This document shows positions 18,381 to 20,992 of a stretch of 36,602 nt of DNA, one piece after another. The notes under the pieces are model-generated. The model searched no databases. It was not told where the DNA came from and saw only the letters and a program-made list of their open reading frames with translations. Both the position numbers and the translations under genes were made by a program. The stretch's first letter is position 1; each line of letters starts with the position of its first letter. The stretch is from Winogradskyella sp. GTDB lineage: Bacteria > Bacteroidota > Bacteroidia > Flavobacteriales > Flavobacteriaceae. The DNA lies in the NCBI RefSeq assembly GCF_016744625.1, contig NZ_JADGDZ010000004.1, positions 7,692 through 44,293 on the forward strand. Reading direction: 5' to 3'.

Positions 18381-19820
18381 ATGAACATACAAAACTACAT
18401 AAACGGCGAATTCATTAACTCTATTCAAAACAATTGGATAGACAACTATAACCCATCTAATGGTGAAGTTTATGGACAAATACCCAACTCATCAAAAAAC
18501 GATGTAGAAAAAGCATACAAAGCTGCCAAAGCTGCTTTTAAGCAGTGGTCACAAACCACGATAGAAGAACGCAGTCGTATTCTTATTAAAATTTCAGAAT
18601 TATTAGAGGCAAACTTACAACGTTTTGCCGAAGCGGAAAGTAAAGATAATGGCAAGCCAGTTAGTTTAGCTAAAACAGTTGACATACCAAGAGCAGCAAG
18701 TAATTTTAGATTCTTTGGTAATGCCATTACACAATTTGCAAGTGAAAGTCATGAGTCAATTGGTCAAAATGCCATAAACTATACATTGCGTCAACCTATT
18801 GGTGTTGTAGGATGTATTTCCCCATGGAACCTTCCACTCTATTTATTTACATGGAAAATTGCACCAGCACTCGCTACAGGAAATTGCATTGTAGCTAAAC
18901 CAAGTGAAGTTACGCCAATGACGGCTTATTTATTAGGTGAAATTTGTAACGAAGCAGGTTTACCAAAAGGTGTTTTAAATATAGTTCATGGACTTGGAGG
19001 ATCGACAGGACAAGCCATTATAGAACATCCAGATATTAAAGCTATTTCTTTTACTGGAGGTACTGCCACTGGAGCACATATTGCTAAAGTCGCTGCTCCA
19101 ATGTTTAAAAAACTATCATTAGAATTAGGTGGTAAAAATCCTAATATCATTTTTGCAGATTGCGATTATGACGATATGTTGAATACAACAGTACGCTCAT
19201 CTTTTGCTAATCAAGGTCAAATATGCTTATGTGGAAGTCGCATTTTTGTGGAAGCTTCTATTTACGAAAAATTTAAAACCGATTTTGTTGCAAAAGTAAA
19301 AGCATTAAAAGTGGGTCATCCTTCTGAAGCTGATACTAATATTGGCGCGTTAGTTTCTAAACCACATTTAGAAAAAGTAAAAGAATACATCAATATTGCT
19401 AAAGAAGAAAATGGAATCGTTTTATGTGGTGGAAATGAAGTTACTGTAAAAGATTTTGAAAACGGTTATTACCTTGAGCCGACAGTTATTGAAGTACCAA
19501 ATGATGAATGTAGAGTCAACCAAGAAGAAATTTTTGGGCCAGTTGTTACCATTATGCCTTTTAATTCTGAAGATGACGTTCTCCAAATGGCAAACAAAGT
19601 CAAATATGGCTTATCAGCTACACTATGGACTAATAATTTAAAACGTACCATGCGCATGAGCAACCAACTACAAGCTGGTATTGTTTGGGTAAACACATGG
19701 ATGATGCGAGATTTAAGAACCCCTTTTGGAGGTGTAAAAGCGTCTGGTGTTGGTCGTGAAGGTGGTTTTGAAGCCTTACGCTTTTTTACAGAAGCTAAGA
19801 ATGTTTGCATAAAGTACTAA
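18381..19820 (+). CDS. nbaE: 2-aminomuconate 6-semialdehyde dehydrogenase (ALDH superfamily)
   Basis: 479 residues. Oxidises 2-aminomuconate semialdehyde to 2-aminomuconate with NAD. ALDH active-site residues are present: N150 (SPWNLP), E248 (LELGG) and nucleophile C282 (NQGQIC); the nucleotide loop is SFTGGTATG. Arg110 (SNFRFFG) may match the substrate-binding Arg of the Pseudomonas enzyme. The 57-nt gap before it contains only a weak CCAAG/CTTGG hairpin. The gap after it is where the GIY-YIG element sits. Confidence 0.92.
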   Translation: MNIQNYINGEFINSIQNNWIDNYNPSNGEVYGQIPNSSKNDVEKAYKAAKAAFKQWSQTTIEERSRILIKISELLEANLQRFAEAESKDNGKPVSLAKTVDIPRAASNFRFFGNAITQFASESHESIGQNAINYTLRQPIGVVGCISPWNLPLYLFTWKIAPALATGNCIVAKPSEVTPMTAYLLGEICNEAGLPKGVLNIVHGLGGSTGQAIIEHPDIKAISFTGGTATGAHIAKVAAPMFKKLSLELGGKNPNIIFADCDYDDMLNTTVRSSFANQGQICLCGSRIFVEASIYEKFKTDFVAKVKALKVGHPSEADTNIGALVSKPHLEKVKEYINIAKEENGIVLCGGNEVTVKDFENGYYLEPTVIEVPNDECRVNQEEIFGPVVTIMPFNSEDDVLQMANKVKYGLSATLWTNNLKRTMRMSNQLQAGIVWVNTWMMRDLRTPFGGVKASGVGREGGFEALRFFTEAKNVCIKY

Positions 19821-19825
19821 CTAAA

Positions 19826-20202
19826 TGTCACCTCGAGCGCAGTCGAGAGGTCGCTAATGAAAATATATTTTGTTTATATATTGCAGTGTTCAGACAATCT
19901 AACTTATACAGGTGTAACAAATAATATTTCAAGAAGATTTGAAGAGCATCAAAAAGGACTGAATAAAAATTGTTATACTTTTAAAAGAAGACCATTAAAA
20001 TTAATTTTTCAACAAGAATTTAACGATATTGAGCAGGCAATATTCTTTGAAAAGAAAATAAAAAATTGGAGTGCAAAAAAGAAATACGCTTTAGCCAATG
20101 GAGAATATGATATGTTGCAAATTTTATCTGAATGCAGAAACGCAACACATTCAAATTATAATCCTAAAAATTAAGTAGGTCTCGACTGCGCTCGATCAGA
20201 CA
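19826..20202. mobile_element. GIY-YIG gene enclosed by 23-bp inverted repeats (family A)
   Basis: Left arm 19826-19848 and right arm 20180-20202 are inverted copies. They share an outer TGTC, a 3-nt variable spacer and a 16-nt perfect core TCGAGCGCAGTCGAGA. The core itself is partly palindromic (CTCGA/TCGAG), so each arm can fold alone. The only gene inside is the GIY-YIG nuclease, whose ATG is 8 nt after the left arm and whose stop is 5 nt before the right arm. TAAA flanks both ends (19822-19825, 20203-20206), a possible 4-bp target duplication, though this is weak in AT-rich DNA. It interrupts the kynurenine operon in the same orientation. Confidence 0.55.
19857..20174 (+). CDS. GIY-YIG family endonuclease
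   Basis: 105 residues. The single domain has the paired tyrosines (FVYILQCSDNLTYTGVTNN: Y7 and Y17), the catalytic Arg/His helix NNISRRFEEHQ (R26/R27, H31) and the metal-binding Glu65 (FFEKKIKNW). This is the small UPF0213/YhbQ-like form found in many copies in flavobacterial genomes. Because it lies precisely between inverted repeats in the middle of a metabolic operon, a role in moving or maintaining the repeats, or in repair at them, is more likely than a role in tryptophan catabolism. That is inference; the nuclease fold itself is clear. Confidence 0.92.
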   Translation: MKIYFVYILQCSDNLTYTGVTNNISRRFEEHQKGLNKNCYTFKRRPLKLIFQQEFNDIEQAIFFEKKIKNWSAKKKYALANGEYDMLQILSECRNATHSNYNPKN

Positions 20203-20209
20203 TAAAATT

Positions 20210-20992
20210 ATGAACTTAGAACTAAACAACAAATACGCATTAGTTTGCGGTAGTACTGCAGGAATTGGTAAAGCAACAGCCTTAGCCTTAGCCGAAGAAG
20301 GCGCAATTATCACTTTAATTGCAAGAAATGAAGACAAGCTAAAAGCAGTACTTTCGGAATTACCTCAACAAAGAAATCATGATTATATCGTTGCTGATTT
20401 TTCAAATCCAGCAGAGTTAAAAACGAAAGTTTCTGATTATATTTCAAAACATCATGGCTTTCATGTATTAGTAAATAATACTGGTGGTCCAGCAGGTGGA
20501 CCTGTTTTTTCGGCAAAAATAGAAGAATTTGAAATTGCTTTTACCCAACATTTAAAATGCAATCATGTGCTGGTTCAAACTTTGGCTCCTTTTATGAAAA
20601 AGGAAGGTTATGGTCGAATAATTAATGTCATTTCAACTTCTGTAAAACAGCCCTTAGATGGATTAGGTGTTAGTAATACGATAAGAGGAGCAGTTGCTAG
20701 TTGGAGTAAAACTTTAGCTAATGAATTAGGTCAGTTTGGTATTACAGTAAATAACGTTCTTCCTGGTGCAACAGGTACGGATCGACTAACCGAAATTATT
20801 AAAAACAAGTCTGCAAAATCTGGTAACACAGAAAAAGAGGCTGCCAATACAATGAAAAATGCCGTTCCTGCCAAACGTTTTGCAAAACCAGAAGAGCTAG
20901 CAGATGCTATCACATTTTTAGCGAGTGAACGTGCTGGTTATATTAACGGAATTAACCTTCCTGTTGATGGTGGACGCACAAAATCTTTGTAA
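20210..20992 (+). CDS. SDR-family protein lacking the catalytic Tyr-Lys pair
   Basis: 260 residues of the classical short-chain dehydrogenase fold: GSTAGIG (14-20), an NNTGG variant of NNAG (89-93), Ser in VISTSV (142/144), and C-terminal YINGINLPVDGG. The YxxxK motif is replaced by S155-N-T-I-R159 (GVSNTIRGAV), so both the general acid Tyr and the Lys are missing. A group of SDR proteins with this substitution exists in bacteria. Its reaction in the kynurenine pathway is not known; no textbook step needs an SDR here. It may be an altered reductase, an isomerase or a binding protein. Confidence 0.88.
   Translation: MNLELNNKYALVCGSTAGIGKATALALAEEGAIITLIARNEDKLKAVLSELPQQRNHDYIVADFSNPAELKTKVSDYISKHHGFHVLVNNTGGPAGGPVFSAKIEEFEIAFTQHLKCNHVLVQTLAPFMKKEGYGRIINVISTSVKQPLDGLGVSNTIRGAVASWSKTLANELGQFGITVNNVLPGATGTDRLTEIIKNKSAKSGNTEKEAANTMKNAVPAKRFAKPEELADAITFLASERAGYINGINLPVDGGRTKSL

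Follow-up and report, generated by a model that had tools for sequence, protein, structure and literature searches.

A small GIY-YIG nuclease gene between inverted GTC-tagged repeats in Winogradskyella: a probable repeat-specific nuclease of a REP family

Two described systems stand closest to the locus reported here. In the RAYT/REPIN system (REPtron), GTAG-tagged REPs are accompanied by an HUH tyrosine transposase, TnpA-REP. The other is a class of REPs defined by Di Nocera et al. (2013; PMC3733652) by a CGTC, TGTC or CCTC tag at one end. According to the available text of that paper, CGTC-tagged REPs are intergenic, form inverted dimers and have an 8–9 bp stem with a 4–5 nt loop; the class takes in the Neisseria dRS3 repeats, which are equated with CGTC-1, and the Rickettsia RPE-4 and RPE-6 repeats. 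The same text hypothesises that RAYTs move GTAG REPs in other bacteria, and describes the CGTC-tagged REPs as being without a dedicated transposase; transposase genes were sought and none was regularly associated with them. In the available main text of PMC3733652 the word "GIY" occurs 0 times, and in the available text of PMC9465073 GIY-YIG and the other gene are listed apart. A literature search that left out bioRxiv and covered few subscription journals joined GIY-YIG to REP-type repeats nowhere among the matches listed.

The window, by which we mean the whole analysed stretch of 36,602 nucleotides from Winogradskyella sp., contains a small nuclease gene located in the gap between two consecutive ORFs, after the stop codon of the first and before the start codon of the second (Table 1). 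From their translations, the upstream neighbour was taken to be the aldehyde dehydrogenase and the downstream neighbour the SDR oxidoreductase of a kynurenine operon, and homologues of these kynurenine-like genes were found in the same order in relatives. The right core is the perfect inverse of the left one. This 16-nt core, the outer TGTC, the 8- and 5-nt distances from the ORF to the cores and the TAAA outside both arm ends had all been named in the original prediction, and all were seen in the sequence. The arms had also been called 23-bp inverted repeats, which holds for the TGTC and the core and fails for the three bases between them (ACC against TGA, both read inward). With an inverted-repeat search, the arms extended to 31 nt at 81% complementarity. 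When the window was searched for the 14-nt core with up to 2 mismatches, two places only were found, which were the two arms; two core matches appeared in 0 of 100 shuffles, with a mean of 0.02 matches at up to two mismatches. The search of positions 19700–20300 against Rfam gave zero matches up to E = 1.

Table 1. Features of the nuclease locus (positions in the window)
Feature	Position	Strand	Details	Basis
Left arm	19826..19856	+	TGTC tag 19826-19829, ACC, core TCGAGCGCAGTCGAGA 19833-19848, 8 nt to start codon	sequence, inverted repeat
Small stand-alone GIY-YIG nuclease gene	19857..20174	+	105 aa	Pfam PF01541, residue conservation, dN/dS
Right arm, inverted	20175..20202	-	5-nt spacer, core 20180-20195, TCA, tag GACA 20199-20202	sequence, inverted repeat
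Aldehyde dehydrogenase (ALDH) gene	18381..19820	+	upstream neighbour; host gene, outside unit	ORF, homologue in relatives' operons
SDR oxidoreductase gene	20210..20992	+	downstream neighbour; host gene, outside unit	ORF, homologue searches

The window protein matched PF01541 with 64.1 bits (cut-off 22.6), and its nearest solved relative by sequence was UPF0213 BH0048 (1zg2). It has the conserved residues Y7, Y17, R27, H31 and E65, which we take, from the GIY-YIG superfamily, to be the catalytic ones. Among 159 small GIY-YIG proteins, these residues were conserved in 97, 99, 100, 99 and 98%, respectively. Moreover, dN/dS was 0.06–0.15 in the 15 pairs of six orthologues, the values being approximate, with dS near or above 1 in most pairs. 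Because the five residues are nearly invariant and dN/dS is this low, it was concluded that the nuclease is maintained.

The core was then counted in the host genome (3.72 Mb, 159 contigs), as the original prediction had proposed. The 14-mer core was present in 18 exact copies and the tagged unit TGTCNNNTCGAGCGNAGTCGA in 32, while the backwards pattern of either gave 0. Thus, the arms are part of a dispersed repeat family and not of the gene alone. Sixteen of the 18 exact cores lay away from the window gene, some of them as gene-less pairs. Four neighbouring pairs within 100 nt were formed by the 18 cores, with the tag outermost in three and the reverse order in one. Among the close neighbours of the window-type repeat that were listed, tags were outermost in 15 of 22, reverse in 1 and direct in 6. 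At spacings of 300–450 nt, again among those listed, tags were outermost in 5 of 6, at 352–367 nt, and these five spacings enclose nuclease genes found by the family search. Since the tag-outermost spacings of gene size enclose nuclease genes, the gene occupies the place of the short spacer in the gene-less pairs.

In one family genome (G085), seven repeat pairs had starts 48–53 nt apart. By eye, several REP pairs of this genome (L343–L348) sat inside a larger, imperfect inverted repeat resembling AGAGnCTGTCTGAAAAG / CTTTTCAGACAGACTCT, an arrangement suggestive of a terminator-like or MITE-like element with the pair at its tip. With regard to folding, the left arm of the window forms a 5-bp stem with a 6-nt loop and the right arm an interrupted stem, and a single window-type arm, as DNA, folded no better than its shuffles. 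A gene-less pair from contig 39 folded better than shuffles (z = -7.0), and arms of the CGTC type and the CTGAAC type folded alone (z = -4.6 and -4.3, respectively). Two other repeat families, CGTCATCCCCGCGAAGGCGGGGATCCAG and TGTCATGCTGAACTTGTTTCAGCATCTC, have an 8–9 bp stem with a 4–5 nt loop. At another locus (L028), the left arm carried approximately 40 extra nt within the palindrome, an insertion into the arm.

The host genome gave seven GIY-YIG hits, four of which had short frames of 93–117 aa, namely the window gene and three others. By eye, each of these three adjoins a different palindromic repeat: GTCATTCAGAGC/GAAGAATCT, GTCATTGCGA/AATCT and ATGCTGAA/TTCAGCAT. The mobile-unit reading of the original prediction had been staked on other small GIY-YIG genes also lying near the repeat; such genes do lie by repeats, mostly each beside a family of its own.

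The association was evaluated in two sets of loci, both of which were picked by protein similarity and never by repeats. For the first set, the window protein served as the query against 120 genomes from its family, each representing a different genus; it matched at E up to 1e-3 in 80 of the 120, and 93 loci yielded 85 small GIY-YIG ORFs. The arm score was the local alignment of the upstream flank with the reverse complement of the downstream flank, with a threshold of 26. A score of at least 26 was reached by 47/83 GIY-YIG genes versus 13/412 control ORFs of the same loci (rank test p = 1.6e-24). For the second set, named genomes were searched with an alignment of six members, and the best 80 of 575 confirmed stretches gave 77 ORFs from 73 loci, one of which (L176) duplicates a first-set locus. 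In these best 80 stretches, 53/74 genes versus 17/326 control ORFs had a score of at least 26 (p = 8e-25). The genes under the threshold numbered 36/83 in the first set and 21/74 in the second. According to the record titles, loci at or above the threshold belonged to Bacteroidota, Alpha- and Betaproteobacteria, Armatimonadota, Patescibacteria and Omnitrophota, and both gammaproteobacterial loci were without arms by score (16 for L212 and 17 for L230). The gene-between-arms arrangement therefore recurs in several phyla.

The tag was determined in the second set by asking which of the 64 trinucleotides immediately preceded a stem of 8 bp or longer. GTC led the two-flank count with 37/76 genes, followed by TCA with 9, where the same hairpin is simply read with an offset of one base, and TGG with 3; among control ORFs, GTC was on both flanks in 4/368. 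On at least one side, GTC was found in 57/76 genes versus 39/368 controls, many of the controls being immediate neighbours of the nuclease gene and sharing a flank with it. An earlier hairpin counter (inward-reading GTC, a minimum stem of 5 bp and a maximum loop of 30) had given 54/83 genes with at least one side and 20/83 with both, and was set aside. Its controls were unclean, with 125 and 11 of 412 control ORFs, 35 and 10 of 83 GIY-YIG flanks read outward, and 28 and 3 of 83 shuffled flanks, so reliance was placed on the arm scores and the 64-trinucleotide test.

Tandem GIY-YIG genes were seen at three loci (L122, G013:C15; L152, G108:C1; L134, G007:C21), and tandem copies were equal in search score in two genomes (two copies in G013 and two in G108). 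In Sinorhizobium meliloti Ak57 (L258, 1288–2458), a GIY-YIG gene lies inside an array of long composite palindromes reminiscent of the RIME elements of rhizobia. Several taxa named in the available text of PMC3733652 had GIY-YIG genes beside such repeats, namely A. lipoferum, S. meliloti, Bradyrhizobium, R. palustris and Neisseria. The repeats at the S. meliloti gene were CCTC-tagged by eye. Ten genes from records of Bradyrhizobium, R. palustris and Neisseria were two-sided in 6 cases, one-sided in 2 (including a Neisseria MAG) and without tagged hairpins in 2 by the strict tag test.

A second repeat, GTCANNCTGAACTNGNTTCAG, was counted in the same 120 genomes, and the nuclease found beside it was used as the query. 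A nuclease was called close at E up to 1e-30 for the window type and 1e-27 for the second type, these cut-offs having been set after the tables were seen. At least four window-type repeats were present in 15/22 genomes with a close window-type nuclease versus 15/98 without (p = 2e-6), and at least four second repeats in 16/19 genomes with the second-type nuclease versus 12/101 without (p = 7e-10), the p-values being optimistic as the compared genomes are related. For the crossed pairs, the corresponding p-values at four or more copies were 0.06 and 0.22. A joint regression put weight on the matched nuclease only (t of 5.7 and 7.9 versus 1.1 and -0.05 for the crossed one), and Spearman coefficients were 0.51 and 0.63 for matched versus 0.39 and 0.35 for crossed pairs. 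Counting genomes with at least one copy, the window-type repeat was also associated with the second nuclease (p = 0.010, and 0.006 at looser cut-offs), and at looser cut-offs the second repeat was associated with the window-type nuclease (p = 0.046). A likely reason for these crossed associations is that REP-rich genomes are rich in several families.

Exceptions were found in both directions. At least eight window-type repeats occurred in ten genomes that had no close window-type nuclease; nine genomes, including this Winogradskyella, had at least eight second repeats and no close second-type nuclease, and three had the window-type nuclease and no window-type repeat. Four of the ten genomes rich in the window-type repeat were checked: two (G080 and G097) had long GIY-YIG frames only and no short stand-alone one, and the other two (G084 and G019) had short GIY-YIG frames. 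Orphan repeats may be relics.

Across the 159 small GIY-YIG genes, similarity between proteins was correlated with similarity between arms (Mantel 0.31); 0 of 999 permutations reached this value, the best being 0.085, and flanks 300–475 nt away gave 0.03. Moreover, a test within genomes was made with 56 genes whose best foreign homologue had a relative score of at least 0.5 and whose own paralogues were below 0.5. The arms were closer to those of the foreign best homologue than to those of any own-genome paralogue in 46 cases, less close in 9 and tied in 1. It was concluded that nuclease clades pair with their own repeat families in a largely specific manner.

The position of the gene was compared among relatives, since a gene always carried at the same operon junction would have overturned the mobile-unit reading of the original prediction. 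Of 25 loci read in the same genus, 15 had ALDH directly before SDR, and the nuclease gene was there in 4 of the 15; the other ALDH|SDR junctions held 75–540 nt of different sequence. In two of these loci (L089 and L099), a different frame of approximately 106 residues was present, alike in both and not GIY-YIG by eye, which is flanked by CCTGCG/CGCAGG-type palindromes and is possibly cargo between REPs. In 20 regions around relatives of the nuclease, a kynurenine-like operon was found in 7, with the gene at ALDH|SDR in five (one broken, G091), at ridA|ALDH in one and after an ACMSD-like gene in one. The other 13 regions held no kynurenine gene within the 9–17 kb covered, and a role in the kynurenine pathway itself was rejected on this ground. 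The gene is thus not fixed at one junction.

Gene-less repeats and nuclease genes also differ in presence between relatives at other operon junctions. In this genome, a gene-less pair of the window family, together with a second palindrome, occupies 121 nt at a junction that we take to be leuC|leuD. The corresponding junction was empty, at 6 nt, in 14 of the 20 congeners read; the remaining 6 had 86–210 nt of different sequence there, in which other palindromes were noticed by eye. The 20 came from the 22 further genomes that gave any match; of the 41 genomes searched, 18 gave none. The sufB–sufC interval of Azospirillum lipoferum 4B contains a GIY-YIG gene bordered on either side by a REP pair. 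This gene was missing, by match coverage, in all 11 other Azospirillum records among the matches listed (23 Azospirillum records matched), and four of these, when read, had no such gene between sufB and sufC. In 150 kb of A. lipoferum AZO_p3, the pattern for its repeat gave 7 hits; 4 lie around the gene, and the other 3 were unlike the repeat by eye. In Shinella PSBB067 the corresponding junction is occupied by a GIY-YIG gene that is flanked by GTC-tagged arms, so that the genes of Shinella (L266) and Azospirillum (L261) share sufB|sufC. Both the sufB|sufC and the leuC|leuD-like sites gave presence and absence only, with no base-exact insertion ends, and the latter showed no clear target duplication against congeners. 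A 4-bp duplication had been put forward for checking in the original prediction. TAAA stands at both ends of the window unit; by eye, no constant flanking repeat was seen at the other copies in the genome, and a duplication is not supported.

Taken together, the window gene is probably a dedicated repeat-specific nuclease of a GTC-tagged REP family, in which the gene and its two inverted arms are the complete unit, and the dispersed copies, gene-less REPIN-like pairs as well as single arms, are non-autonomous. The partnership of nuclease and repeat is well supported; cutting and spreading of the repeats are inferred. The nuclease would recognise the tag and the palindrome, probably as a hairpin on single-stranded DNA such as the lagging-strand template, and would cut next to the tag. 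Repair or ligation of the cut ends by the host could then copy or move the repeat to new intergenic sites. Whereas a RAYT holds the cut end through a covalent bond to a tyrosine, no such link is expected for a GIY-YIG nuclease, and the joining step is for this reason left to host repair. Tentatively, and with slightly less than even confidence, the same may extend to the whole GTC-tagged REP superfamily across bacterial phyla, which small GIY-YIG nucleases would mobilise by cutting and repair, with nuclease and host repair alone and without transposase, recombinase or reverse transcriptase, in parallel with RAYT/REPIN.

The main rival is a maintenance role without spreading, in which the nuclease acts as a structure-specific enzyme of repair or genome maintenance, trimming or resolving the repeat hairpins, and the repeats are binding sites whose instability is limited. 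The same association and clade-specificity would follow from it, and purifying selection suits a function useful to the host. Such an enzyme alone leaves unexplained both the near-constant size of the seven pairs in G085 and the rise of repeat number with the matching nuclease, and we regard this role as rather unlikely. The arms may instead be cis-regulatory hairpins of the nuclease gene, such as an attenuator, an mRNA stabiliser or an autoregulatory element cleaved by the nuclease, with the dispersed copies as by-products. Their position a few bases from the start and stop codons agrees with this. The exact cores away from the window gene, the gene-less pairs among them and the inverted arms on both sides of the gene in several phyla speak against it, and this reading is improbable.

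A transposase elsewhere, a RAYT or another IS, could also move the repeats with the GIY-YIG gene as cargo, as is hypothesised for RAYTs and GTAG REPs in other bacteria in the available text of PMC3733652. For PF01797 (Y1_Tnp, the RAYT domain and the transposase class searched), 0 matches were found in the genome, with the control positive in 5/14 named genomes. In addition, Di Nocera et al. (PMC3733652, as available) tied no transposase gene regularly to CGTC repeats, and cargo would not be expected to track the repeat sequence clade by clade, which leaves this explanation very improbable. Finally, that REPs of other origin pile up at loose intergenic sites where small GIY-YIG genes lie by chance is scarcely credible: operon junctions of the genus do gather palindromes of several families by eye, but control ORFs of the same loci rarely have arms, and arms track the nuclease clade more than the genome, the 46-to-9 result disfavouring chance landing of repeats near nuclease genes.

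The original prediction had missed an existing description: this class of repeats is already known as CGTC-tagged REPs, with the enzyme lacking. For this missing enzyme, the small GIY-YIG nucleases make the best candidate. As the available text of PMC3733652 left the enzyme open in 2013, a sequence-matched candidate makes the question testable with one protein and one oligonucleotide. If the reading is true, the common small "GIY-YIG nuclease family protein" would gain a function, and two unrelated enzyme folds would have reached the same partnership with palindromic repeats.

Among known proteins with this domain, the small stand-alone GIY-YIG proteins of the UPF0213 type (solved as 1zg2 and 1ywl, both named hypothetical proteins) have the same domain as the window protein and are similar in size. 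GIY-YIG homing endonucleases of the I-TevI type already link such a nuclease to DNA mobility. The window protein scored 16 bits against TIGR01453 (group I intron endonuclease), far under the cut-off of 56, and, unlike homing endonuclease genes, the window gene is intergenic and bordered by short dispersed palindromes, with no intron, intein or conserved-gene insertion. The window repeats share with CGTC REPs the terminal TGTC tag and the mostly inverted dimers (tags outermost in the majority of those listed), and differ from them in a palindrome that is longer than the 8–9 bp stem with its 4–5 nt loop, and imperfect. As in RAYT/REPIN, a small enzyme gene lies between tagged palindromes of its own, inverted pairs without a gene are scattered through intergenic regions, and enzyme and repeat co-vary, here with exceptions and weak crossed associations. 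Unlike RAYT/REPIN, the enzyme is GIY-YIG (PF01541), unrelated to HUH/Y1, in a genome without PF01797, and the tag is TGTC/CGTC and not GTAG. The suggestion of a RAYT/REPIN counterpart built on another enzyme fold, made in the original prediction, fits this evidence and is supported by it: the unit works like RAYT/REPIN, yet by both its enzyme and its tag, each of which was tested, it stands outside that system.
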